Shown: positions 8,723 through 45,171 of the stretch, in pieces
Layout: each line of letters opens with the position of its first letter
Position numbering within the stretch: position 1 is the stretch's first letter
Translations under genes and position numbers: made by a program
IMG/VR virus record: IMGVR_UViG_3300008050_000087
Span: 1 to 45,474 of that record
Length of the DNA stretch: 45,474 nt
DNA from: a virus
Direction: 5' to 3' (one strand)
The notes under the pieces: model-generated
The model's database searches: none
The model's input: the letters and a program-made list of their open reading frames with translations, nothing else
Told to the model about the DNA's origin: nothing

Positions 8723-9226
8723 CTATCGAAGCTCCAATGTAATTACTTGATTCGCGAGCGACCAGTAGAATTCCCCTGTGAAAAACATACGAGCCTGAAC
8801 CAACGCTACCTGACCACCTGCTAAGCCGGTTCTGACGGCTTGAGTTATGTCTAGCGGCACTCGGGCGTCTTGTAGTTCTGGCCACGGGCTGCTTTCGATC
8901 TGTGCTACACCGTGTTCATCTAGATAAACGGTTCCCGACCATTGCTCTACGTTAATGACTAAACCATGGTATGTCTGCGTTGGGTCACCGCGATTAGTTT
9001 TTGGGTGATGGTTGAATACACATGCACCACTCTCGTGATGACGAGTCGAACCCATGGCTGGAATACGGTAATTGTTTTTAATCATTTGTTCAGCATATAG
9101 TTTTGACTTAGGTATTCTATAACTCGCAGCATGTTCATCCCACCTTGTTTTTGTGTAGTAAAGCAGGCGGTATTGACTTGTTTTTGGGTTTTCTGCAAAG
9201 AATAGCTGGTATGGACGCTTACCCAT
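8723..9226 (-). CDS. Hypothetical protein (167 aa)
   Basis: Lies between the IMPDH-like and primase-helicase genes and overlaps the former by 8 nt. It contains an ACVFNHHPKTNRGDP stretch and a C-terminal beta-rich part. Family not recognised. Confidence 0.75.
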   Translation of the reverse strand: MGKRPYQLFFAENPKTSQYRLLYYTKTRWDEHAASYRIPKSKLYAEQMIKNNYRIPAMGSTRHHESGACVFNHHPKTNRGDPTQTYHGLVINVEQWSGTVYLDEHGVAQIESSPWPELQDARVPLDITQAVRTGLAGGQVALVQARMFFTGEFYWSLANQVITLELR

Positions 9227-10367
9227 TTATTACTCCGTGTGGTGTTGCTTCTTCTAAACCTGCTTGAGTTACCCTGCAGGCGACTACTGTGTTTGGACCG
9301 AAGTCTTTTAGAGATGAAACTCCCGAATAAGAAATCGCCGAGCGTAAGGCGGCGCGGTGACGCGCCAATGTTGTTTCAACTGTATCTCCTTCCCAAATTA
9401 GTGTAGTGGAGACGCCTTCGGGGGCGTCTACACGTTTACCATTATCTGTTTGGAAATCTGCTGATGCATGCCCCCGGTAGCGCTTAATCATTTGATACTG
9501 GTTGCGACCAGGTCGAAATGATCCACCACTTAGGTCAAGTTGTTTTTGTACGTGTTGCCATCCAGGAGACTCCTTACACTTGCTAAATACGCTGCCCATC
9601 ATGACTGCATCTGCGCCAGCTGCAAGCAACTTGGCGACATCATCGGTATCTCTTATGCCGCCGTCTGCGATAATGATAGTGTTCTTGCGCTTAGAGTAAG
9701 TACTGTCAGGATGTATTCTGTTTAAAGCAGCATGGATGTCTCTAACGGTGCTCCACTGAGGTATACCGAAACCGGTAACCTTTCGGGTAATACACATACT
9801 GCCTGGCCCAACGCCAACTCGTAAGTGAGTACAGCCTTTGTTAACACAATGTATGGCTGCCTGCGAAGTAGCTATGCTGCCTGACATTAAGCCGCCGAGT
9901 GGGTTCACCATTTTGAGATATTCATATGCCTCGTCGGCAACCAGCCCATGGCCTACAGCAATATCAACTGCAAAATTCCAGCCGTTGGGATTTAGATTCT
10001 CTTTATCAAGTTTTAGGTCAACCAGCTTCCCCATCATGTCTTTTAGCTGATCTATCTGGCCAGGCACAGCAATCCAGAAATTAGGGTGCGATGCGAAATC
10101 TCTCACTGCGCATTCCCATTCGCTGTCGGGCTGTTCTTGACCAGCCGTAGGTACGACAGGCAATCCTCTTGAGAGGACGGCCATTTCTCCAGCTGCCAGC
10201 AGCGCTTCGCACATCTCGTATCCACTAACTCTGTCCATAGGTGCACTGTAAATGTAAGGATGCAGTTTAACATCCTCGCTTCTACTTCTTACAATGCTGT
10301 ATCCAGGTACCAGCTGTATGTCGTCACATGTCAGTGCTAATGGCAACTCTTCTGTATGGGTGAACAT
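9219..10367 (-). CDS. IMP dehydrogenase / GMP reductase family protein, no CBS domain
   Basis: 382 aa TIM-barrel enzyme. GVGPGSMCITRKVTGFGIPQ carries the catalytic cysteine (C192). IADGGIRDTDDVAKLLAAGA and the phosphate-binding region follow, and the last part (YRGHAS, EGVSTTL) corresponds to the mobile flap. IMPDH makes XMP from IMP, while GMP reductase converts GMP to IMP. GGIR and ESPG favour IMPDH, while SYSGVSSLKD resembles GMP reductase. The regulatory CBS pair of cellular IMPDH is absent. Near a DUF5664 hydrolase and an HD hydrolase, it suggests control of the purine pool during infection. GGAGAAAG precedes the ATG. Confidence 0.87.
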   Translation of the reverse strand: MFTHTEELPLALTCDDIQLVPGYSIVRSRSEDVKLHPYIYSAPMDRVSGYEMCEALLAAGEMAVLSRGLPVVPTAGQEQPDSEWECAVRDFASHPNFWIAVPGQIDQLKDMMGKLVDLKLDKENLNPNGWNFAVDIAVGHGLVADEAYEYLKMVNPLGGLMSGSIATSQAAIHCVNKGCTHLRVGVGPGSMCITRKVTGFGIPQWSTVRDIHAALNRIHPDSTYSKRKNTIIIADGGIRDTDDVAKLLAAGADAVMMGSVFSKCKESPGWQHVQKQLDLSGGSFRPGRNQYQMIKRYRGHASADFQTDNGKRVDAPEGVSTTLIWEGDTVETTLARHRAALRSAISYSGVSSLKDFGPNTVVACRVTQAGLEEATPHGVING

Positions 10368-14688: not shown

Positions 14689-15619
14689 CGTTTATACCCC
14701 GACTTTCGTCGTATTTGTAGGGACTAGACTATACCATTATCCACACGGGATACCTGTTGGTAGTCGTTGGGGGCTTGCCTATACGGCCTATCCCTGCTGA
14801 TTGCCCAATCCTTAACAGTTTCAGCACAGCGACGACCTTTCGATCGCCGCCTCCTCGTTAAGGCTCTAAGGGGGTTCCAGCATATTCCAGGTTATTCGAC
14901 GGCAGTTGCCTGCCGAAGGGACCTGAGCTGTTTGAATTTTTTGTATTTTCTTTCTAGATAGGGTCCTGGCTCAGAGTAAAGCCAAGTTCCAAATTTCAAT
15001 ATAGATGTTATAGATGCAAATCGAACATACTTCATGTTGTCAGTCTTAGAGTCTTGAATTTGATACTTGATTCCCATACTGGTCAGGAGCCTAGTAAACT
15101 TATCAATGTCTGATTTTTGAAGAACGATATAGCAACTGGCCTTAAGGTAGGGGCCATATTGTTTGCCATTTAGAGTTTGCATTCTTTGACTGATGTGAAT
15201 ACATCCATCACCGTCAAAAATGCCACGCCAATAACTTGGCTCGTATGTAGTTTCTACAATTCGCTTTGAATGAGTAGCAACTCCATGCGCAGCTAAATCT
15301 TGACACATTGCTTTTCTTGAAATAGTAAGTCTACCCATTTGGCTACTATTTATGTAGCCGCCAGACTGCCTCGGAAGTGCAATTTGACCGGTGAAGCCTA
15401 CATCATCTTTCAATGTGCGCAAATGTTCTTTATCTTTGATTTGGCAGACTGTAATCCATGGCGCTTTTGTAGCGACATATCCATCTGCATACAGAAAGCC
15501 CAACCAGTAGGCTTTCGTAGGTGAATCTATATTTTGAAAATACCTATCATCTAATTTGTGTCTCATGTTATCTCCTTTTTTGCGCACAAGGAGTTTAACA
15601 ATCGACTACAGCTGTGTCA
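14689..15619 (-). mobile_element. Group I intron 2 in dnaE (931 nt)
   Basis: Interrupts the conserved FANYG/FNKSHS codons. Exon 2 ends in T and the intron ends in G, as group I splicing requires. The catalytic core occupies the last ~200 nt (14689-14891). It contains AACGACTA (R/P7 5' strand) and GGTATAGTCTAGTCC (S/P7 3' strand), whose GACTA and TAGTC pair. The endonuclease gene sits in the 5' part, before the core. Splicing out the intron keeps the frame. Confidence 0.85.
14892..15566 (-). CDS. LAGLIDADG homing endonuclease (in intron 2)
   Basis: 224 aa from the ATG preceded by AAAGGAGATAAC. An in-frame start 21 nt upstream lacks this site. Two LAGLIDADG-type motifs, AYWLGFLYADGYV near residue 20 and YWRGIFDGDGCI near residue 110, make a monomeric two-motif enzyme. 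Such enzymes cut intron-less alleles so that the intron is copied in. The end of the gene (GTCGAATAAC) runs into the ribozyme core, and the same TCGAATAAC ends the other intron's endonuclease gene. Confidence 0.9.
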   Translation of the reverse strand: MRHKLDDRYFQNIDSPTKAYWLGFLYADGYVATKAPWITVCQIKDKEHLRTLKDDVGFTGQIALPRQSGGYINSSQMGRLTISRKAMCQDLAAHGVATHSKRIVETTYEPSYWRGIFDGDGCIHISQRMQTLNGKQYGPYLKASCYIVLQKSDIDKFTRLLTSMGIKYQIQDSKTDNMKYVRFASITSILKFGTWLYSEPGPYLERKYKKFKQLRSLRQATAVE

Positions 15620-16764: not shown

Positions 16765-16985
16765 CTTGCATTCAATTTGATTCGTTAATTCAAATTCGTT
16801 CTCTTACGAACTGCTGCATGTTGCCATGCAGAGTAGACTATATCATCACCCCTGTAGGGTGCTCTGCGCTTCGGATCACTTGACCCTACTCCCTGCCAAG
16901 GGATAGTCGTTGCACGTTCCTTCCGACAGAAGGCTTCGCTCAGGGTTACCTCAGTAAGGCTTCCCCTGAATTCACAGAGTTATTC
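16765..16985 (-). ncRNA. Group I intron 1 catalytic core (td-like, probably IA2)
   Basis: Minus-strand core reads, in order, CAGGG...CCCTG (P4), a GCCTTC/GGAAGG hairpin (P6 region), GTGCAACGACTATCCC (R), AGTAGGGTCAAGTGA, GATGATATAGTCTACTC (S) and CTGCATGGCAACATGCAG (P9-type hairpin). Several blocks match the phage T4 td intron as I remember it, including CAACGACTAT, GAGTAGGGTCAAGTGA and ATATAGTCTGCTCTGCATG. Confidence 0.9.
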
Positions 16986-17759
16986 GATTGCTATTGTTAG
17001 CAAAAGGGACTGTGCGACAGCCCATCTTTCTTTTTTACGCTCTAGAGAAATTGTGGATTCACGATATAGGTGATCCATTAGCCTTAATACATCTTTGCCA
17101 CTTTTTTCTAAAACAAAAATTGTTTTATGCTGATGTATAAAGCTGTGATTCAATTGTAATTCTGTTGCTACCGTTTGCAAAAAGCCATAGTTTCCGCATA
17201 TCTTCATTGTGAAGCCGGATGCAGACTTTTTAGATTTTGCCCAACATCCATCTCCGTCAAAATATCCACGAATAAAATGACGCCTTAAGGCTGCTGATAG
17301 CTTTGGGAATTTTAGAGTGAAAGTTTTTCTTTCGACTATTTCTAATTTTGTTAAAGCTTGGCACAGCAAGGGAGATGTAATTATTAAGCGACAGTAAGGC
17401 TTTTTGCCATACCCTGTTGGAGGATACGTTTTAATTGGATGTGTAGCAGATAATGCATTTCTCAACTTTTCTAGATGAGATCTGTCTTTTTCTGCCAAGG
17501 CACAGCCTAGTACTTTGCCTGTTTGATATCCGTCTGCAGCTAGAAAGCCTAACCAGTAGGCTTTCTCTTCGCAATTGATGTTGTCAAAGTATTGTTCATT
17601 ACAATTATATTTTAGTGATTTTTCTCTATGTGATCTAATGGGTACATTGTTGTTTCGAAGTGCTTTGTATACAAAATAATTTGTAATACCAAGTTGTTTC
17701 GATATATATGTAGCTCCATGGCCTCGTAAGTAAAGATTGATGATCTGGTCTGAATTTAT
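16980..17759 (-). CDS. LAGLIDADG homing endonuclease with N-terminal HTH (in intron 1), non-standard start
   Basis: The frame is open from 17774 to 16980. Residues read from 17759 give an N-terminal helix-turn-helix (LYLRGHGATYISKQLGITN). The first LAGLIDADG motif AYWLGFLAADGY and the second FIRGYFDGDGC follow. No ATG, GTG or TTG exists before the first motif. The only well-placed candidate is ATA at 17759, with GGGAGGA just upstream. It may be an AUA start, a mutated ATG or a base error. The first TTG, at 17498, would delete the first catalytic motif and is unlikely. About 259 aa. Confidence 0.82.
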   Translation of the reverse strand: MNSDQIINLYLRGHGATYISKQLGITNYFVYKALRNNNVPIRSHREKSLKYNCNEQYFDNINCEEKAYWLGFLAADGYQTGKVLGCALAEKDRSHLEKLRNALSATHPIKTYPPTGYGKKPYCRLIITSPLLCQALTKLEIVERKTFTLKFPKLSAALRRHFIRGYFDGDGCWAKSKKSASGFTMKICGNYGFLQTVATELQLNHSFIHQHKTIFVLEKSGKDVLRLMDHLYRESTISLERKKERWAVAQSLLLTIAIE

Positions 17760-31882: not shown

Positions 31883-32138
31883 CGGGATACTCCAAAGTCA
31901 CTTTGTTGTTTTCTAGGAATTGCTTGTAGAAGTACCCTGTCAGGATACCTAGGTGGAGAATATCTGAAATTCTCATCCTGGGTAGGGCTTGATTTACTTC
32001 TAGGTATTCGGTAACTGAGGTTGTCAGTACGTCTATATCGCGCTTGCGAGCCCTAGCTATCTTTTCTGATAGCTGGCGCACCAATTGCGCACCGGTGATT
32101 TGTATATCACCGGCCTTTGTACTAACACGCCATTTCAA
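31824..32138 (-). CDS. Hypothetical protein, possible paralogue of 12001-12333
   Basis: Placed at the TTG overlapping the Whirly-like stop (TTGA), giving about 104 aa (KWRVSTKAGDIQITGAQLVR). A longer in-frame extension runs inside the upstream gene and is not believable. SDILHLGILTGYFYKQFLEN matches a segment of the 110-aa protein at 12001. Ends in a Ser/Thr repeat. Function unknown. Confidence 0.65.
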   Translation of the reverse strand: MKWRVSTKAGDIQITGAQLVRQLSEKIARARKRDIDVLTTSVTEYLEVNQALPRMRISDILHLGILTGYFYKQFLENNKVTLEYPDEDSTLDSKSSSTSTSTSS

Positions 32139-32656
32139 TCCAGGCCTACTAGAGTTCCTGCAAGTCCAGAAAGAACTCGCATGATGACTGTATGCTCGCC
32201 ATCTGATAGTGGGACCATAATCTGTCGGCGAGCTGCACCTTTGCCTTCGGCAATTACAAGCTTCCATGTATAGGCGTAATTGCCTACCCCTGGTTCTAGC
32301 TGTAAGGTCTTTGGTGTTCCATCATGATTGTGGAACACTCGTGCACTTGATTCTCCACCGCCTCTGAGCCTGTTAACCTTTCGGCCGTTTTCTAGTTCAG
32401 TTGTGGTTTCAATCAATTGACAGATGTCGGCGAAACTGATTGCGAAACTAATTTTAGAACCGGCGCCCCAGTCCCAACTTGGATTACGTTTATCACCATT
32501 ACCTGGTGCTACTTCAAGGAGTACTGCTCCTTCTTTGTCAAGGATTTGTCGCTGGTCGCCAGCTTTGGTGGTAATCGTCTTCCACCTGGGCGGCAGCAGT
32601 TTAAACTGCGCAGCGCCTTGACTTTTGTAGAACTTCATTAATCCTGATTTACTCAT
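32135..32656 (-). CDS. Whirly-like single-stranded DNA-binding protein
   Basis: 173 aa. The run LLPPRWKTI, LDKEGAVLLEVAPGNG, WDWGAGSKISFAISFADICQ, VFHNHDGTPKTLQLEPG and IMVPLSDGEHTVIM follows, block by block, the plant and mitochondrial Whirly fold (also related to PC4). Those proteins bind single-stranded DNA and limit illegitimate recombination. The assignment is from memory of family motifs, not a search. It sits two genes from phoH and would be a second ssDNA binder beside the OB-fold SSB at 42844. AAGAGAGAAA precedes the ATG. Confidence 0.62.
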   Translation of the reverse strand: MSKSGLMKFYKSQGAAQFKLLPPRWKTITTKAGDQRQILDKEGAVLLEVAPGNGDKRNPSWDWGAGSKISFAISFADICQLIETTTELENGRKVNRLRGGGESSARVFHNHDGTPKTLQLEPGVGNYAYTWKLVIAEGKGAARRQIMVPLSDGEHTVIMRVLSGLAGTLVGLD

Positions 32657-32668
32657 TTATTTTCTCTC

Positions 32669-32971
32669 TTACTCTTTGCTCAAGCTAGCTAGCACGTCAA
32701 TGCCAAGCATGGCACAACTGTTTGCCAACGTTGAGCCTTTATTCTTTATATCTTCACTTACTATGTTAAAGACAGTTAGTTTACTCACCTCTTGGTGAGA
32801 AGGGCTATCCATAAAGTCTAGCCCTTCTAAAATAAACACATTTGCCAGTACTTCAAGACTATCATACAGAGATAGCTTATTCAAGATTTCTCTGATTTCT
32901 CCTACCTTTTGGTTTAGGCAGGCGGTGGCGTCGCTATGAATTTCTTTGTTGATTTTTCTTGTGTTACCCAT
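32669..32971 (-). CDS. Hypothetical protein (100 aa)
   Basis: The ATG is preceded by AGAGGTAAATGA and overlaps the phoH 3' end by 58 nt. Helical (REILNKLSLYDSLEVLANVF). Function unknown. Confidence 0.65.
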   Translation of the reverse strand: MGNTRKINKEIHSDATACLNQKVGEIREILNKLSLYDSLEVLANVFILEGLDFMDSPSHQEVSKLTVFNIVSEDIKNKGSTLANSCAMLGIDVLASLSKE

Positions 32972-33813
32972 TCATTTACCTCTGCTACCAGTGCTGTAAT
33001 CGGGCTACGGTATTGATTCTTTAACTGGACGGCGCTCGCGATATCAGATTCTTGAAATGGAATTGAATAGACAAGCTTGTATAAGCCTGTCTCTTCAGCA
33101 GATAGCGGGATGTCGATTTGTTTTAGGTCGCCAAGGATGATCATCTTAGTATTCTCACCCATACGGCTAATGATTGTGTTTAGCTCATGCCATGTCATGT
33201 TTTGAGCTTCGTCAAGAATGAACGTCGCGTTTTCAAAAGTGCAACCACGAGCTAGTTCCACTGGTTGGAACTCTATATCTCCTTTTGATACCATTCTATC
33301 TATATAAGATTTGTCTGTACCAAATACCTTGTCTAATACTATTTTGTAGCTTGCAAGGTAGGGGTCATACTTTTCTTCGATTGTTCCTGGTACGGGTCCA
33401 AATGCTTGACCTGTACCTACGATGGCAGTGGGTTTTGAAAGAAGAATACGCCGACCGGAATTAATCCAGTCGTGCGCTGCGGTGGCCATTGCCAATGTAG
33501 TTTTGCCAGTACCGGCCGACCCGATAGCGACGTTAATAAGAATATTATCGTCAGTTAGGCAATCTACGAGTGCCGATTGAGCACTATCTCGTGGCTTAAA
33601 CCCGCTGATATTCATTTGCCTGTCTGGCTTAACACGTTGCCATTTAAAACAACCAAGATAGCGTGCAAGCACTGCGTGCTTGCTGTTAATAGCATCTTGA
33701 AATAAAACATAACTGTTGACTGGTGGATTGCATATTGTTAGGTTTACAACCTTCTGGCTGTAAATAAGATCTATGACATTACCGGCAACAGGAACTGTTT
33801 GAATTGCAAGCAT
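32914..33813 (-). CDS. phoH: PhoH-like ATPase
   Basis: 299 aa. Walker A GSAGTGKTTLA (98-108), Walker B FILDEAQNMT and later ILGDLKQIDIP are the PhoH hallmark. PhoH proteins are NTPases, some with RNA-helicase activity, and are frequent in phages. The N-terminal ~80 residues are an added domain of unknown fold. CAGGAGGAGT before the ATG is a strong ribosome binding site, and the 143-nt gap upstream suggests this starts a transcription unit. Confidence 0.9.
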   Translation of the reverse strand: MLAIQTVPVAGNVIDLIYSQKVVNLTICNPPVNSYVLFQDAINSKHAVLARYLGCFKWQRVKPDRQMNISGFKPRDSAQSALVDCLTDDNILINVAIGSAGTGKTTLAMATAAHDWINSGRRILLSKPTAIVGTGQAFGPVPGTIEEKYDPYLASYKIVLDKVFGTDKSYIDRMVSKGDIEFQPVELARGCTFENATFILDEAQNMTWHELNTIISRMGENTKMIILGDLKQIDIPLSAEETGLYKLVYSIPFQESDIASAVQLKNQYRSPITALVAEVNEWVTQEKSTKKFIATPPPA

Positions 33814-33956
33814 GGATTACTCCTCCTGTGAGCTAGCTTGTTTCTATCTTACATCAGAAGTAAAAACGCGTGGTGTTTTTGTAACTAGATAGCGCTTGCA
33901 ATAGTTATGCTTATTGAATTATAGACCGGACCCCTTGGAGGGTCCGGTCTTTTGTG
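33814..33956 (-). promoter_or_regulatory. Intergenic region between the ubiquitin-like gene and phoH
   Basis: The gap contains an 11-bp hairpin (see 33923-33953) and then, reading toward phoH, TATAAT beginning next to the hairpin. No matching -35 box is evident. A promoter for the phoH unit is plausible by position, but its exact site is not shown. Confidence 0.35.
33923..33953. terminator. Strong hairpin, probable terminator after the ubiquitin-like operon
   Basis: Stem AGACCGGACCC/GGGTCCGGTCT of 11 bp with a 6-nt loop. On the plus strand it is followed by TTT. On the minus strand, the direction of local transcription, it is followed by ATAATT, so classic U-tract termination is weaker there. 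It lies directly behind the ubiquitin-like gene. Confidence 0.55.
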
Positions 33957-34175
33957 CTACGCGTTGCCCTTGGAGGGTTCCAGCGCGGCCACGGTGTCTG
34001 TACAAGACACTTGGGTAGAAGTCAGCTCTCCGGCGGGAATGCGGCGGCCGTTAAGGCAGATGCCACGATTGCCTAGGGAGTACTGCTCCTGAATGTCTGC
34101 AAGGGTAGTACCCTCTGGGACAGTCTTAAGGTCTTCGAAGCCGCCGGGGAAGACGGTCAGTCGGAATGTAACCAT
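33957..34175 (-). CDS. Ubiquitin-like / ThiS-MoaD-type beta-grasp protein
   Basis: 72 aa. FRLTVFPGGFEDLKTVPEGT, then TLADIQEQ, GICLNGRRIPAG and CTDTVAALEPSKG follow the strand-helix-strand order of ThiS/MoaD and other prokaryotic ubiquitin-like proteins. The NGRxI and DTVAxLxPxKG blocks are diagnostic. The C-terminus is KGNA, not GG. It may be trimmed after the glycine by the JAMM protease encoded nearby (inference). Last gene of the cassette with E1-like and JAMM genes. GAGAGAAAAAC before the ATG. Confidence 0.82.
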   Translation of the reverse strand: MVTFRLTVFPGGFEDLKTVPEGTTLADIQEQYSLGNRGICLNGRRIPAGELTSTQVSCTDTVAALEPSKGNA

Positions 34176-34216
34176 GTTTTTCTCTCGTTTTTTCTTGTTG
34201 GGTTGAGCTCAACCGC

Positions 34217-34948
34217 TTAAGCGATTGTCATTGTAGTCAATTTAGGAGACATTTCCGTTATTTGATGACGGGGGCTGGTCCATTCATGACTGTTCACGCG
34301 AGACACATACATCTCGCATAGTTGGTGTATTACAAATGATGCACACTGCATTACATTTGTAGGGCAGATCTTTAAGTTGCAGGGCCCTTCTGGTACTTCA
34401 TCGTCAGATAGAAGTCCTGCCATAAAATTAGTTACACTGTCTGGGTCGAAGTTATCCACTATACATGCTTCCCAGCTACTAAAGGTAAGCCGAGTTTCAA
34501 ATACGTGGTCTACTGTCAAGTTGTTTGCAACAGCCTGCATGATAGCTTTTCGACTATGCATACTGTCTGTAGTCAAGATGACTGGTCCTACTTCTTCTAG
34601 CTTAGAATTCTCGGTAAAGAATTCATTATGAATTGTTACGTCAGCTGCGGGGTTAAATCGCAGGATTACGTCACGCAGCGCCTCTACCTTTGGCATTCCT
34701 ACATGGTATGCGTCGTATCGCTGATTTGCCAGGTTATGAGGCTCGACGATATCAGCGTCCCACAGGTCTAGCTTGTGTGCGCCCATACGAGCGATGCCAT
34801 CTGCAACATACGAACCGGTAGCGCCGCATCCTATAATGTGGATACGGCCATCAATTGACGTCGGGCCAATACGCCCTGCATGACGTCCAAAATTAGGTAG
34901 TGACGGAGTATTGTTCTGTTGAATACTGTTGGATTGTAATCCAGTCAT
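34217..34948 (-). CDS. E1-like ThiF/MoeB-family adenylyltransferase
   Basis: 243 aa from the ATG after CGAGGCATGGA. The Rossmann ATP site IIGCGATGS (39-47), the DADIVEPHNLANQRYDA loop (D64, D66, N72, N75, R77) and TTDSMHSR (126-133) are the E1/ThiF signature. Cysteines C190, C195 and C202 lie in the region where E1-type enzymes place the catalytic or zinc cysteines. Such enzymes adenylate the C-terminus of a ubiquitin-like protein. The N-terminus overlaps the JAMM gene by 56 nt, and the ubiquitin-like gene follows. Confidence 0.88.
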   Translation of the reverse strand: MTGLQSNSIQQNNTPSLPNFGRHAGRIGPTSIDGRIHIIGCGATGSYVADGIARMGAHKLDLWDADIVEPHNLANQRYDAYHVGMPKVEALRDVILRFNPAADVTIHNEFFTENSKLEEVGPVILTTDSMHSRKAIMQAVANNLTVDHVFETRLTFSSWEACIVDNFDPDSVTNFMAGLLSDDEVPEGPCNLKICPTNVMQCASFVIHQLCEMYVSRVNSHEWTSPRHQITEMSPKLTTMTIA

Positions 34949-36134
34949 TCCATGCCTCGTGTGCACTTAGTAGATTGTTGACGTGTTTAGCTTCTTTTGT
35001 ATCTAGAATTCTATTTGTAATAGCTACAGCCTGAGCAAGAAAGTGGGTGTGTGTCCACCAACCATTTTCTAGCTGTTGAAGAAGCTTTGTGATTTCTTCT
35101 TGGATATCTAGATTGTTTGGGATGCCGGCTTTGATTTCAGCGCTAGCGGTATCCCAGCCACTGTCGTCTACCTTAAGACAATTTCGAACTAACCAATAAG
35201 CTTCCGGCTTATCACCATACTGCTCAGCAAGTGCGGTAGCTGCTGATTCCAAGGCGTTCCAGTTTTGCTGTTGGCTGTTAATATCTTTTCCGATTTTAAC
35301 TAGTTCTTGTCGTTCTTTCCAAGGTAGAAACTTTGTTTCGTTATATAGATTTGAATATCGAGGGTATTCGACACCGCTAATTTTTAGCGCGCCTAGCTTA
35401 TATGCACTTAGTAACCAATCTGGCGTAGTGTAAGAATTGCTCTTAGTAACCACCTGGTAACTTGATGGTCTTGACGGCCAAGACCAAGATTGCTGTGTGA
35501 TTTTTGTTTTAAGACTTGCATCAATGTAGGTTTTGTCTATTGCCCTTACGTATGTTGTAAAGGGAACATTACTCCACATAATATCTAGCTCAGGATCATA
35601 GACTTTTGTGAAGAGTTCATCTCTTTGATTCCAGATAAGCATAACCACAGGCTGGTTGGGATTATGATTGGAATCAATTTGATTTTTTATCATCTTTTTG
35701 TAAGTACTGTCGTCTGTACCACTGGGAGTAACGCCCATCTTGACATGACTATGGCACCAACAAGTTAGCTTGCCATTAAATTCGTTGAATTTTTCAAGTT
35801 CAGCCTTGTAAGCCTCTACATCTTCTTGAAAGTCAACGGTGATAAATCGATCACGGACTTCCTCTAGAGTTTTTTGTTGGTCTTCAACCGTAGTATCACA
35901 TTCGCCACCATGTACTGTCTGCCATGGGATAATCAGATCTTCCAATTCATAGTATATGTGATTAGGTCTATCAGGGAGTGTTTTCTTGGTCACTGTGTGG
36001 TACCACTGAACCTCCTTGGTTTTAACTCCACGGACCAGGTATTTAACCTGGTCCATGAGGTCTGGATCCATTATCAGCACCGGCTGCTTATTAGCGACTG
36101 GTGATTCTATCCTAAGTGTTCCTTGCACTTTCAT
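34893..36134 (-). CDS. JAB/JAMM-domain metalloprotease (predicted deubiquitinase-like)
   Basis: 413 aa. The zinc motif is exact: H128-x-H130, S138 and D141 (CHSHVKMGVTPSGTDDS, HxHx7Sx2D), with E41 (TKEVQWYHT) as the catalytic glutamate. JAMM enzymes cleave isopeptide or C-terminal bonds of ubiquitin-like proteins. The C-terminal ~230 residues are unrelated and Trp-rich, and may be a substrate-binding domain. ATGA overlap with the 702-aa gene, and the E1-like gene downstream, fix it in one operon. Confidence 0.87.
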   Translation of the reverse strand: MKVQGTLRIESPVANKQPVLIMDPDLMDQVKYLVRGVKTKEVQWYHTVTKKTLPDRPNHIYYELEDLIIPWQTVHGGECDTTVEDQQKTLEEVRDRFITVDFQEDVEAYKAELEKFNEFNGKLTCWCHSHVKMGVTPSGTDDSTYKKMIKNQIDSNHNPNQPVVMLIWNQRDELFTKVYDPELDIMWSNVPFTTYVRAIDKTYIDASLKTKITQQSWSWPSRPSSYQVVTKSNSYTTPDWLLSAYKLGALKISGVEYPRYSNLYNETKFLPWKERQELVKIGKDINSQQQNWNALESAATALAEQYGDKPEAYWLVRNCLKVDDSGWDTASAEIKAGIPNNLDIQEEITKLLQQLENGWWTHTHFLAQAVAITNRILDTKEAKHVNNLLSAHEAWNDWITIQQYSTEQYSVTT

Positions 36135-38239
36135 ACGCTTGTTTCCTCTTGAGAGGGGTGGCTACTAGGTTCGGGCTGGATTGTAGACCAAGTACCTAAA
36201 TCAGTATCTAAGCTTGCTTCTAACAGAATACTTGTAATGACTTGTTCGTGCGTCCTACCATGCATTGGAATCCATCTGCTGAATACGTGTTTATCGAAAT
36301 TATGACCAGCTGCTACCTGTAGCAGTGCCCACTGAAGGTCGGAATTAGAAGCAAAACGCATGTTTCTTGCGTGTATAGCGCAATCCGACTTTATAATCGT
36401 GGCAGCATCTAGCTGATCAACAAATGCTTGATGGATATCGGCATTAAAATCATAGGAATAATTTTCTGCATAGGGAAACCAATTATAGGTTTGTCCCCAT
36501 TCGTCTTGAGCTGCTGCTGCATACAGGTAGGTCAAGCATCCAGTTGTAGCCAAGCGGATTTTTCCGTTTTTCATTGCTGAAAGTAAACTTGGGGCTAGCT
36601 CTCCAAGGCATGGATTTTCTATCCACCTTCCTATGATATTTGAAGCTTGGCAAACCTCTCTGACTCCATGATGGGGATGAATCTTTGCATATGGATACTC
36701 GTTATGACTCCACCACTTGTAGCCGATAACACCATTGGGGTCGTACATTCTATACTGAAATGTTAAAGGTATATCTAAGTCTGGATCAAAGGTGATGGAG
36801 CACTCGAATGGACCGCAAATTCGATCTTCGTCAACTTTGTTGCCCAGATTGTTTACCACTGACATTGGTTTTGGCTCTATGGTAATGAAACGAAGAGATG
36901 CTATGCTATGCTCTTCCTGAAGCAGGTCAGAAATAGAAATTTTCGAGGGTTCGATAACGTCACCACGTCCGTCATTGAAGACTAAGTGTGTAATTCTTAT
37001 ACCCCATGCTTCTAGATACTCAATTAGTTGTGTCCCATCAGCTTCAAGAGCTTCTGTCGAGGCAACAAGTTGTTCATGTAGCCCAATTGAGGCTTCCGTT
37101 AGACTTTGATAGACGGTCTTGGCTTTAATTTGATTTTCTAACGCTTGAGGTAGCATGGATTCTTGCTGTGCCAGCCTGGCTTTAGTAGCTTGAAGTCTCT
37201 TTTGATAGGCTTTCATATTGTTGAGCAAATTTTCTATTACTAAATTTTCAGCTTCGGCTGCTTGCTCAAGCTGGGCTAGTGCTAGTTCAGCTTTTTCTTT
37301 TTTTAATCGTGCTGCTATTTTACGTTTTTGTATCCGAAATATCTGAAGACCTTCAGCTGTGAAGCATGCATTATCTACCTTTTGTAGGTTGATAAAATTA
37401 TCTGCAGCTAGTGGATTAACTAGACCTGGTATAGTATCGGGCGGTGGGCGGTGATCTTCTGACACGTATATGGCATTCCAAGCTTGAGTTGCCGAAGCTA
37501 CAGATACAGATCTTCTGATACTAGCGTCGAGTGTATTTAAGTCCACGATATCTGCTAAACAGTCCGCGTGTATTTTCTCAAGCACAGATTTGACAAATGC
37601 ACGGGCCGATGCGGTCCAATCTGAATAATCACGCCCTGTAATTACATGGGGGATAACTAAGGTCGCCTCGGTGTTTTTGGTCCAACGCACCACCTGATGT
37701 TTTCCTAAAATAATGCTATTGCCACATAACAGTTGGCTTATTGTACGTTTTTCGTGTCGTAGTATCGGTATGCCTGTTTGCAGGCTTTGGATTGTAAGCA
37801 CATCGTATTGTGTCGCCCTATCCTGAAAAAGGTTTTTGGACAACCTTTGTCGCTTCCAAAACATTGCTGGTGCTGCTTGCTCAATGTTTGTACGCGTACG
37901 CATAGTCATCGAAGGAAGTTGAAATGGTATTGGAGATATCTGACTTAGTATCCTGGGATGAGGTCGCCATGGCCTGTTCGACCAGAAAAGGTTCTCGCCA
38001 CCATGGTTATACAATTTGAGCGGCTGGGACGTTTCGAATACCTCTGTTGTAGAAGACCAAAATCGATTGTAATTCTGGTTCTCTCGTACTTCTGCCAAAT
38101 CAGAAGTATTCGTTACAGTTCCATTCCATGGCGTTGATGAACCATATTGAACATTGTTAGGAAACCAATTTGCTATATGAGTGTCGTTTGTAAAAGCCGA
38201 GTAGAAGCCTGTTACTTCAGAAACAGGTATTGATGTCAT
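36131..38239 (-). CDS. Large protein with coiled coil and possible E2-like (UBC-fold) domain
   Basis: 702 aa. Residues 1-300 are of unknown fold, and ~303-400 form an Ala/Glu/Lys-rich coiled coil. At 475-550, CGPFECSITFDPDLDIPLTF is followed by YPYAKIHPHHG (515-525) and ENPCLGEL (541-548). This layout of strands, an HP-H stretch and a CLG cysteine (C544) recalls the E2/UBC fold, where the cysteine carries the ubiquitin-like protein. The match is motif-level only. Position beside JAMM, E1 and ubiquitin-like genes strengthens it. It overlaps the 171-aa gene by 23 nt. Confidence 0.6.
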   Translation of the reverse strand: MTSIPVSEVTGFYSAFTNDTHIANWFPNNVQYGSSTPWNGTVTNTSDLAEVRENQNYNRFWSSTTEVFETSQPLKLYNHGGENLFWSNRPWRPHPRILSQISPIPFQLPSMTMRTRTNIEQAAPAMFWKRQRLSKNLFQDRATQYDVLTIQSLQTGIPILRHEKRTISQLLCGNSIILGKHQVVRWTKNTEATLVIPHVITGRDYSDWTASARAFVKSVLEKIHADCLADIVDLNTLDASIRRSVSVASATQAWNAIYVSEDHRPPPDTIPGLVNPLAADNFINLQKVDNACFTAEGLQIFRIQKRKIAARLKKEKAELALAQLEQAAEAENLVIENLLNNMKAYQKRLQATKARLAQQESMLPQALENQIKAKTVYQSLTEASIGLHEQLVASTEALEADGTQLIEYLEAWGIRITHLVFNDGRGDVIEPSKISISDLLQEEHSIASLRFITIEPKPMSVVNNLGNKVDEDRICGPFECSITFDPDLDIPLTFQYRMYDPNGVIGYKWWSHNEYPYAKIHPHHGVREVCQASNIIGRWIENPCLGELAPSLLSAMKNGKIRLATTGCLTYLYAAAAQDEWGQTYNWFPYAENYSYDFNADIHQAFVDQLDAATIIKSDCAIHARNMRFASNSDLQWALLQVAAGHNFDKHVFSRWIPMHGRTHEQVITSILLEASLDTDLGTWSTIQPEPSSHPSQEETSV

Positions 38240-38732
38240 GTGAGATCCTTATTATCACGTATGTACCTACTGCTGGAGCGACTCTGTCTAACAGCAGCGT
38301 AGGGAATTCGACTACTTTAAGTAGTTCGTCTGGTAAGAAGAGCAAGCCAATCTGTGCTTGAATATCATTTGATTCAGCAACTAAAGATTGAATATCTTCG
38401 GATGTTGAAGCCATCTTATGTGCTGATGCTTCTAGGCTGGCAATAAGCCTGGTTGTTAGTGCGGCGTCACCGGATGATGGTGACGCCAACTTAGTTTTTA
38501 TATGATGATAGAGCTTATTGATGTCGGGCGTACGTGGTCCATGTCGATCACGGATTGTTAACGATACTAGTCCGTAAGCATAGGATGTGTCGGGATCTGC
38601 ATAGATATCTATTTCGGCCAACTGTCTTAGTTGATGAGGACTTAGTGTTAAGGAGGTGTTTGACACACGACCTCTAAACGCTCTTGCTTTCGTCTTTTGT
38701 AGTAGTCGACTTTTTTGATTTTTTGCGTCCAT
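38217..38732 (-). CDS. Unknown protein of the ubiquitin-like cassette (171 aa)
   Basis: Basic N-terminus (MDAKNQKSRLLQKTKARAFR), then helical central part and a hydrophobic C-terminal segment (LLLDRVAPAVGTYVIIRI). No recognised family. Overlaps on both sides place it in the same operon as the E2-like and JAMM genes, so it may be a partner or target. AGGA before the ATG. Confidence 0.7.
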   Translation of the reverse strand: MDAKNQKSRLLQKTKARAFRGRVSNTSLTLSPHQLRQLAEIDIYADPDTSYAYGLVSLTIRDRHGPRTPDINKLYHHIKTKLASPSSGDAALTTRLIASLEASAHKMASTSEDIQSLVAESNDIQAQIGLLFLPDELLKVVEFPTLLLDRVAPAVGTYVIIRISHDINTCF

Positions 38733-38835
38733 TATCTATCCTGGGTAGGGCTAATGACCAACACACAGGACATCTGAAATCATCACTGTCGCCAGCCCAG
38801 CCACAGATGTTTTTATTTGTACAAGCCAACTGCAT
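38674..38835 (-). CDS. Small four-cysteine zinc-ribbon-like protein (53 aa)
   Basis: Reads MQLACTNKNICGWAGDSDDF followed by RCPVCWSLALP and a Lys/Ser/Thr tail. C5, C11, C22 and C25 could bind one zinc. TTTTGGAGG sits at ideal spacing before the ATG. It is the first gene after the terminator at 38844 and overlaps the 171-aa gene by 59 nt. It opens the ubiquitin-like operon and could be an adaptor. A RING-type role is not supported, since only one metal site is visible. Confidence 0.7.
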   Translation of the reverse strand: MQLACTNKNICGWAGDSDDFRCPVCWSLALPRIDNGRKKSKKSTTTKDESKSV

Positions 38836-38843
38836 GCAGGCCT

Positions 38844-38875
38844 CCAAAAGAGAAAGGGCCCCCTATGGGGGCCCT
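38844..38875 (-). terminator. Intrinsic terminator upstream of the ubiquitin-like operon
   Basis: Nine-base perfect stem AGGGCCCCC/GGGGGCCCT with a 3-nt loop, followed on the minus strand by TTTCTCTTTT. It ends the Lon-like transcription unit and separates it from the operon beginning at 38835. Confidence 0.8.
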
Positions 38876-39074: not shown

Positions 39075-40778
39075 TCATCTAAACCCAACTATAGGCTGGG
39101 TGTTTCTGTTTGGTGCGGCAATGATGTCTTCGACATCAATTACTACGTGTTTTTCTTTATGGACATCTAGTCTAACTGCTGCTTTCCTGAGGATCTTGCC
39201 AGTACGGCGTTCTATCTGTCTAAGGTGTTCCTCTTGAGCAATGATATCCATTGCGTCTGGAGTAATTGTGACCTCCTGGGCGGTCATATTGTAGTTAGCT
39301 AATGTTTTGGGACAGATATAGTTTTCTAGAATATACCTGCGCTCTTCGTAGGTATATTTTCTAAACTCTAGAAACTCCATCCTGTCAAGTAGAGCATCAT
39401 GGATTAGGCTTTCGTCGTTAGCCGTGCAGATGAACATTGCTTTCGACAAGTCAATTGGCAATTCAACGAATCGATCAACGAATTCATTGTTTTGCTCTGG
39501 GTCTAGTAGTTCTAGTAAGGCGCTACCAGGATCGCCTTGGAACCTATTTATTTTATCTACCTCATCAAGAAGAATGAGGGGATCCATAGTCTTTTCTTTT
39601 CTGATTCCATCTATGATTCTGCCGGCTTTAGCTCCGACGTAGGTACGACGATGTCCTCGTAGCTCAGCTTCATCTTTCATACCACCCAAGGCGATACGAA
39701 TTAGCTTTCTGCCGGTTGCTCGTGCAATTGACTTTGCTATACTGGTTTTACCAGTACCTGGTGGGCCGGTGAAACATAGTACTGTTCCGGAACTTCCTCC
39801 ACATCTGGCCTCGATGACCATGTGCTCTAATACATGGTCTTTTATGCCGTCGAGTCCATGATGAGTTTCATCTAATTTTTGTCTTATGGTTGTAAGATTA
39901 GCTTGTTCGGCACTATGTTCTGCCCAAGGGATACTTAACACCGTATCAAGATAATGCGAGATTACGTGTTTATCACTACTTGTGTCAGGTAGTGCTTCCC
40001 ATCTTTTAATGTCATCTCTTATTTTTGCTTCATGTTCATCTGGCATAGCGCTTGTTGCTATTCGTGCACGCCAATTTTCTCTTGGAATAATTGGCTTCGA
40101 AGACCTTTTTTTACGTGTGGTTTTCTTTGTTTTAATTTCGCTTCGACGTTGTTCCAGGTATGCTGATATAGCGTTTTGGACCATGTCCCATTGCTTTGCG
40201 TAATCCATTTCTAACAGATAGACTAAGCGTTTTTCACTGTCTGGCTTCATAAAGTAATGAGCCAACAGATGCATTCTGGAACTGGTATTGCGTTTGCGCT
40301 TAAGCATTTCGATGACTTGCCTGTCAAAAGTTTTTGCTCTATTGATGATTAGCGCTACATGTGATTCAACATCGGCTTCTAGCTTTTCTTCATCTGTAGA
40401 AAACTCTTCTAGCACTGGCTGGACATCAGCTTCAACACCAATATCAGTGTCGTAAAAGCTTAGTATGTGAACACGTTCTTGACCCACCAGGGTGATGATC
40501 TGATCTGTGTCACTATCTTCTTTTCTTTCCACTACACAGATTATGCCCGTATGGGCTTTTAAGTCTGTGAGCGACTGGGCGCTTTCCATTAGCGCCCAGT
40601 TGTTTCCCTGATTATACCCAACGACTACAACCTTTTGTAGGCCAGGTCCTTGTGGACCAATGCCGGCTGCGGCGCTTCTAAAGCGATTCGCCATGCCGAG
40701 TGGGATGTCTATGTATACTTCTCCACCTGGCAGGGGAATCTGATCCGCATCCGATAAAACGTATACTGGAAACTGCAT
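39075..40778 (-). CDS. Lon-like protein lacking the protease domain
   Basis: 567 aa. A Lon N-terminal (LAN-type) domain covers ~1-200, then a helical linker and a Lon-type AAA+ module. The module shows GPPGTGKT (338-345), GGMKDEAELRGHRRTYVGA, LILLDEVDK (401-409) and LDRME with arginine finger R466. The chain ends at IIAAPNRNTQPIVGFR, where bacterial Lon would continue into the Ser-Lys peptidase. A TGA follows and no peptidase frame is found downstream. It could act as an unfoldase or form mixed rings with host Lon and poison it (inference). GGAGGGG before the ATG. Confidence 0.88.
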   Translation of the reverse strand: MQFPVYVLSDADQIPLPGGEVYIDIPLGMANRFRSAAAGIGPQGPGLQKVVVVGYNQGNNWALMESAQSLTDLKAHTGIICVVERKEDSDTDQIITLVGQERVHILSFYDTDIGVEADVQPVLEEFSTDEEKLEADVESHVALIINRAKTFDRQVIEMLKRKRNTSSRMHLLAHYFMKPDSEKRLVYLLEMDYAKQWDMVQNAISAYLEQRRSEIKTKKTTRKKRSSKPIIPRENWRARIATSAMPDEHEAKIRDDIKRWEALPDTSSDKHVISHYLDTVLSIPWAEHSAEQANLTTIRQKLDETHHGLDGIKDHVLEHMVIEARCGGSSGTVLCFTGPPGTGKTSIAKSIARATGRKLIRIALGGMKDEAELRGHRRTYVGAKAGRIIDGIRKEKTMDPLILLDEVDKINRFQGDPGSALLELLDPEQNNEFVDRFVELPIDLSKAMFICTANDESLIHDALLDRMEFLEFRKYTYEERRYILENYICPKTLANYNMTAQEVTITPDAMDIIAQEEHLRQIERRTGKILRKAAVRLDVHKEKHVVIDVEDIIAAPNRNTQPIVGFR

Positions 40779-44696: not shown

Positions 44697-44772
44697 TGGA
44701 GCGACCAGTGGGACTTAAACCCACGACCTTCTGCATGGCAAGCAGACGCTCTATCAACTGAGCTATGGCCGC
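44697..44772 (-). tRNA. tRNA-Gly (GCC anticodon)
   Basis: Acceptor stem GCGGCCA/TGGTCGC, anticodon stem TCTGC/GCAGA with loop TTGCCAT, and T stem GTGGG/CCCAC all pair. The discriminator is T, usual for tRNA-Gly. The 3' CCA is encoded (44697-44699). Confidence 0.93.
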
Positions 44773-45095: not shown

Positions 45096-45171
45096 GGTGG
45101 GTAACTGGATTCGAACCAGCGATCACTGGACCACAACCAGTTGCTTTAGGCCTGACTAAGCTATACTCACC
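45096..45171 (-). tRNA. tRNA-His (GTG anticodon)
   Basis: Has the extra 5' G (G-1) opposite C73 that marks tRNA-His. The acceptor GTGAGTA/TACCCAC has one A-C mismatch. The anticodon stem ACTGG/CCAGT with loop TTGTGGT gives GTG. The T arm contains GGTTCGAATCC. CCA is not encoded. Confidence 0.92.

Follow-up and report, generated by a model that had tools for sequence, protein, structure and literature searches.

A probable phage-encoded ubiquitin-like conjugation cassette, with tandem Ubl precursors in its relatives

The prokaryotic operons known for ubiquitin-like (Ubl) protein conjugation come from bacteria, and those tested act against phages (CBASS, Bil). In type 6d of Iyer 2006 (PMC1779556) and in BilABCD (PMC11354881), a Ubl, an E1, an E2-like protein and a JAB protease are encoded in one operon, and the JAB exposes the C-terminal glycine. 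Type 6e poly-Ubl operons (PMC1779556) combine E1 and JAB with Ubl repeats of 70-75 aa, 1-3 of them in tandem, and they have a zinc-finger partner as well. Here, we describe a cassette that resembles both, found in the IMG/VR viral record IMGVR_UViG_3300008050_000087, whose 45,474 bp are called the window below. According to our analysis, the cassette probably is a phage-encoded pathway for ubiquitin-like conjugation and deconjugation, located in a replication/repair region. If this is true, phages themselves tag proteins, perhaps of the replisome or of the host, and several lineages have kept the ability, with relevance to the origin of ubiquitin signalling and to the conflict between phage and host. 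In the open-access literature searched we found no description of a complete phage Ubl set with tandem precursors.

Six open reading frames (ORFs), all on the minus strand, occupy positions 33,957-38,835, where the first-pass annotation had placed them. In viral scans and a single genome scan we identified another 17 distinct contigs of 15-184 kb (16 viral, one from a metagenome-assembled genome, MAG). The order zinc-ribbon-like protein (ZnR), E2 candidate, JAB, E1 and Ubl, mostly followed by PhoH and Whirly, is found in 18 contigs, the window included. Protein identities are about 20-40%, so the gene order has survived deep divergence and the block is not a product of chance. The expected linkage in related phages was thus confirmed, and the conserved neighbourhood also takes in an AAA+ protein, PhoH, Whirly and a uracil-DNA glycosylase (UDG). 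The sole MAG contig (L032, PBNR01000076.1) belongs to a Gammaproteobacteria MAG; it is itself a piece of a related phage and was likely binned with that MAG.

For the Ubl of the window (33957..34175, minus strand, 72 aa) none of the libraries searched contains a matching family. Its AlphaFold (AF2) model, built with 15 related sequences, has a predicted local distance difference test score (pLDDT) of 89.2 and shows the order strand-strand-helix-strand-strand-strand, which is that of ubiquitin. When the model was compared with the PDB using Foldseek, the best matches were ThiS (3.6e-4), MoaD, SUMO and ubiquitin, and the viral matches include giant-virus ubiquitins. The proposed beta-grasp fold is therefore supported, and the protein turned out to be one of a family whose members often occur in several copies and in tandem.

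The sequence ends with ...EPSKG|NA. Among 16 aligned Ubl units K69 and G70 are invariant, and in 37/37 units the Lys-Gly pair is followed by at least one more residue (Asn in 35, Ala in two), so that none stops at the glycine. A C-terminal glycine, as in Ubl modifiers, is thus available in every unit but exposable only after processing, and trimming is required if this glycine is to be activated. Several relatives encode head-to-tail poly-Ubl, which is new here. Tandem ORFs are present in six of the 18 contigs, with two units in L003, L033 and L040, three in L004 and L043, and four in L036, mostly with a period of 71 codons; within the relatives, the Ubl is multi-copy in one subclade. Both the residues beyond KG and the tandem ORFs make most sense with a processing protease. 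The JAMM of the cassette is the obvious candidate for this trimming, which, judged from the sequences, is the strongest functional inference of our analysis.

Two further observations concern the Ubl genes of the relatives. In L036 (13000-14148) the four Ubl units are fused to a C-terminal domain, which is a separate gene of about 100 aa between the Ubl genes in L003-L007. In one subclade a histone H1-like Hc1 gene is located between E1 and Ubl (L003 11801-11983 and orthologues; Pfam 3.2e-14 in L005). We considered its product as a candidate Ubl target in that subclade; the gene is missing from the window.

The JAMM/JAB metalloprotease (34893..36134, minus strand) has 413 aa including a C-terminal extension. 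Its segment HSHVKMGVTPSGTD is an exact HxHx7Sx2D motif (H128, H130, S138, D141), and E41 is the JAMM glutamate. As E41 and the HSHx7SxxD pattern are invariant in the relatives, the assignment as a JAMM protease holds. A tblastn search with the JAB and the 702-aa protein of the cassette against the INPHARED phages gave no match.

The E1-like protein (34217..34966, minus strand, 249 aa) matches Pfam ThiF with an E-value of 3.5e-21 (75.9 bits, cut-off 28.1). It contains GCGATGS, D70/D72, K93, D134 and R139; the classical NLNRQ arginine is absent and NLANQR is found. Across 13 phage E1s 16 residues are invariant, among them GxGxxGS, DxD, K93, D134, R139 and C196, in agreement with the earlier description of a ThiF/E1 enzyme with an intact ATP site. 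Cys196, conserved in 13/13, is the candidate catalytic (thioester) cysteine. The protein does not belong to the PRTRC ThiF family (TIGR03736, 29.9 bits, cut-off 144.75), nor is it a CBASS E1-E2 fusion of the kind that goes with a CD-NTase (Cap2), as the PADLOC matches cover the ThiF part only and the 249-aa E1 has no fused E2.

The PADLOC matches, although due to the shared ThiF domain, raise the question of counter-defence, i.e. that the phage JAMM and Ubl disturb host Ubl immunity (CBASS Cap2/Cap3, Bil, BUB) by deconjugation or competition. The phage setting and the existence of anti-phage Ubl systems (PMC10097602) agree with such a role. However, a Ubl, an E1 and an E2-like gene of its own, with catalytic residues kept over deep divergence, exceed what an inhibitor needs, and the cassette is located among replication genes. 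We regard this explanation as quite unlikely.

The largest protein (36131..38239, minus strand, 702 aa) consists of an N-terminal region, a long predicted helix at 295-393 (coiled coil) and a C-terminal domain with H521-P-H...C544-L-G...D579-x-W581. The HPH, the cysteine, the glycine two residues further on and D-x-W are invariant in ten aligned members, while HPH and Cys-x-Gly are kept in 18/18 relatives (window included). There is hence an active-site-type cysteine after an HPx motif, at a spacing of 16-38 residues. From these sequence features it is fairly likely that the C-terminal domain is E2-like. The role is suggested by the position of the gene, by a PH...CxG pattern that occurs in three phage groups and by a coiled coil in two of them. 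The conserved HPH and cysteine, the gene position and the coiled coil speak for the E2-like segment of the first-pass annotation, but neither statistical homology to E2 families nor a usable model was obtained.

The two other phage groups carry the same four parts among different neighbours. In gut phages (L010-L015) JAB and E1 genes neighbour genes for a Ubl-like protein and for a protein that combines a coiled coil with [NP]PH...CxG. The crAss-like phages (cr111_1) and Dulem virus 41 have Ubl-like, E2-like, JAB and E1 genes between primase and UDG, and the E2-like motif is HSHV...GGCLG or HSHC...CCLG. Exonuclease, primase and UDG neighbours are present in the crAss-like phages too. The recurrence of the same parts in different surroundings points to a functional unit rather than to hitch-hiking. 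A full set in a phage had seemed unusual at first; this impression was wrong, as the cassette recurs in crAss-like and other gut phages and is not a one-off. The crAss-like records label the pieces of the cassette only as 'thiamine biosynthesis' and 'hypothetical'. Using HHalign, the Ubl families of the three groups were not joined with confidence. HHalign alignments of the 702-aa protein with the gut and crAss E2 candidates, run with negative controls, gave no significant score, and these non-significant alignments land on the HPH/CxG stretch.

Could the Ubl instead be a sulfur carrier? Here it would form a thiocarboxylate as in ThiS, MoaD, Urm1 or QbsE and serve to modify tRNA, DNA or a small molecule, not proteins. 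ThiS and MoaD are the best fold matches, the E1 is ThiF-like, and a role of JAB proteases in processing sulfur carriers has been put forward (PMC1779556). However, in the neighbouring genes inspected we noted no sulfurtransferase, rhodanese or cysteine desulfurase, an E2-like partner with a conserved cysteine is present, and tandem Ubl precursors are typical of protein modifiers. A sulfur-carrier pathway is for these reasons decidedly improbable.

In the protein-conjugation pathway that we favour, the JAMM would trim the Ubl or poly-Ubl precursor after Lys-Gly, exposing the C-terminal glycine. The ThiF-type E1 would then adenylate the trimmed Ubl and accept it on Cys196, and the 702-aa protein would pass it to target lysines by means of its E2-like domain (Cys544, HPH521-523). 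The coiled coil, the zinc ribbon and the 171-aa protein of the cassette may be assembly or targeting parts, and the JAMM could also take the Ubl off its targets. Judging from the surrounding genes (UDG, SSB, AAA+, PhoH, Whirly, recombinase, polymerase), the targets may be replication or repair proteins of the phage or the host.

Several points weigh against this pathway. The 702-aa protein has no detectable E2 homology in Pfam, in a PDB profile search or with HHalign against Prok-E2_B, and its spacing between HPH and cysteine exceeds that of classical E2s. The full-length AlphaFold model of this protein is of low confidence (pLDDT 39); a Foldseek search with it found no UBC fold match, though results from such a model are meaningless. 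The Prok-JAB match of the JAMM (E-value 1.7e-5, own-genome search) does not reach the Pfam curated cut-off. Finally, the predicted mature end of the Ubl is a single glycine after lysine and not GG. The interpretation as a conjugation cassette is partly supported, by the Ubl, the E1, the JAMM, their linkage and the phage setting; the E2 assignment, with neither homology nor a usable model, is its weak part.

The two remaining proteins are small. The zinc-ribbon-like ZnR (38674..38835, minus strand, 53 aa) has a C-x5-C...C-x2-C pattern and starts at an ATG with GGAGG upstream; its homologues lie upstream of the E2 candidate in the relatives. The 171-aa protein (38217..38732, minus strand) is assigned to the cassette by position and has no match in the family-library searches. 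Weak matches to frataxin and CHS5 (E-values 0.1-0.2) were dismissed as chance, as was a match of a 57-aa ORF of the window to HIV Tat (E-value 0.011). In L002 and L041 unrelated proteins of about 150 aa occupy the place of the 171-aa protein.

Five of the six genes overlap as first described (by 59, 23, 4 and up to 74 nt), while the Ubl gene starts 41 nt past the E1 stop. Both hairpins reported as terminators are present. The one between the AAA+ gene and the cassette (38855..38875, minus strand) has a T-rich tail, but in the GC-rich hairpin 3' of the Ubl (33923..33950, minus strand) a clear U-tract is missing from the coding strand. The short overlaps of most genes between the hairpins suggest one operon.

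Downstream, the conserved neighbours are a PhoH-type helicase (32914..33813, minus strand; Pfam PhoH 5.6e-42) and a Whirly-type, probably ssDNA-binding protein (32135..32656, minus strand; Pfam Whirly 2.3e-11). Whirly proteins are best known from plants. Elsewhere in the window there are a primase-helicase, DnaE in pieces, a UvsX-like recombinase, rIIA/rIIB and a Cas4-like exonuclease, and these phage replication genes in a viral record support the phage setting. A role in virion assembly, with the Ubl attached to structural proteins or processed together with them, has been suggested for tail protein I of lambda and its JAB partner, and JAB/Ubl pairs of this tail-assembly type are known in phages (PMC1779556). 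For the present cassette such a role is very unlikely, as no structural genes were recognised beside it in the window, the relatives or the crAss-like phages, and as the tail systems have no E1 and E2.

Upstream, a Lon-type AAA+ ATPase with Walker motifs (39075..40778, minus strand) is an accessory neighbour, and such a gene precedes the cassette in about two thirds of the relatives. Its match to NCBIfam lon (3.6e-112) is confined to the AAA part, and the Lon_C Ser-Lys protease domain was not found in the window or in eight relatives (nine records). The protein ends with ...PIVGFR. This [IV]GF follows a variable linker, and the GF is invariant in 12/12 orthologues, even at 23% identity. The tripeptide [LIVMP]-G-[FL] is the ClpP-docking element of ClpX and ClpA. 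A ClpP-like protease is found in 8/8 larger relatives, G001-G008 (L045-L047, L064-L068), and in the three relatives inspected it adjoins RusA, near primase. In the relatives aligned, Ser and His of the triad are kept and Asp is not conserved. The protease also matches phage head-maturation proteases; Gp23 was not found when this possibility was checked. A 2021 jumbo-phage survey discussed phage ClpP, whose distribution is patchy, as directed at the host and described no Ubl system (PMC7824862).

These genes allow a reading in which the Ubl is a tag for degradation, the Lon-type AAA+ unfolding tagged proteins and feeding them to a ClpP docked via the C-terminal [IV]GF, in a miniature analogue of the ubiquitin-proteasome system. 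The missing Lon_C, the ClpP of the larger relatives and the resemblance of the invariant GF to the docking tripeptide speak for it. On the other hand, the Lon-type AAA+ is absent from G002, G003, G004 and G008, although these carry both the Ubl cassette and ClpP. The window, possibly a fragment, holds no ClpP in its 45 kb, the ClpP also matches head-maturation proteases and its Asp is not conserved, and the AAA+ tail could be left over from the Lon linker. We consider degradation unlikely. The wider form of this idea is rather unlikely, namely that tailed phages carry a self-contained ubiquitin-proteasome analogue, with polyubiquitin-like precursors cut by JAMM, a phage E1 with a coiled-coil E2, and AAA+/ClpP destroying tagged host or phage proteins.

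Some other features were seen on the way. A conserved protein encoded between AAA+ and ZnR in relatives (L034 4821-5669 and orthologues), which is not in the window, appears nucleotidyltransferase-like on sight, and its L005 orthologue has no Pfam match. In the window the DnaE-type polymerase gene is split by a group I intron and two homing-endonuclease-looking ORFs (16814-17029 (-), 14892-15587, 16980-17498). An IMP dehydrogenase/GMP reductase-like gene (9222-10367, minus strand) adjoins the primase-helicase; a similar gene is found ahead of the primase in the relative L045. Two tRNA genes are located at 44700-44772 and 45096-45170 (-).

Compared with Bil and type 6d, the phage set differs in its Ubl, its E1 and its E2 candidate. 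In BilA a single protein contains two Ubl domains; the phage cassettes have single units or 1-4 tandem units with a KG site each. BilD contains two adenylation domains and a Cys domain, the phage E1 one short ThiF-type domain of 249 aa. BilB has a CEHH arrangement; in the phage E2 candidate, a large protein with a coiled coil, the motif is HPH...CLG. In type 6e the JAB is mostly fused to the E1 and the E2-like domain lacks the cysteine, whereas in the phage set JAB and E1 are separate and the cysteine is kept in 18/18.

Within phages, phiCrAss001 and cr111_1 likewise have adjacent JAB and E1 genes ('metalloprotease domain' and 'ThiF'), with the Ubl-like and E2-like genes recognised here upstream, near primase and UDG. 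The crAss-like set differs in its long-tailed Ubl-like domain, in an E2-like gene in which no long coiled coil was seen, and in lacking the ZnR/AAA+/PhoH synteny. The lambda tail assembly pair TAPI/TAPK shares a Ubl with a conserved C-terminal glycine and a JAB partner, but it is part of a tail module with a single Ubl and neither E1 nor E2. In eukaryotes, polyubiquitin and its deubiquitinases offer a further parallel, as the precursor is head-to-tail, has units of near-identical length and is cut after a conserved glycine; in contrast to it, the phage set has KG|N and not GG, and it offers no candidate processing enzyme other than the JAMM.

The separate short E1, the separate JAB, the retained cysteine, the coiled-coil E2 candidate, the KG|N end and the location in a phage genome place the set in neither Bil nor type 6e. 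It would work like both, and it is best filed as a variant of prokaryotic Ubl conjugation with three phage-borne forms.

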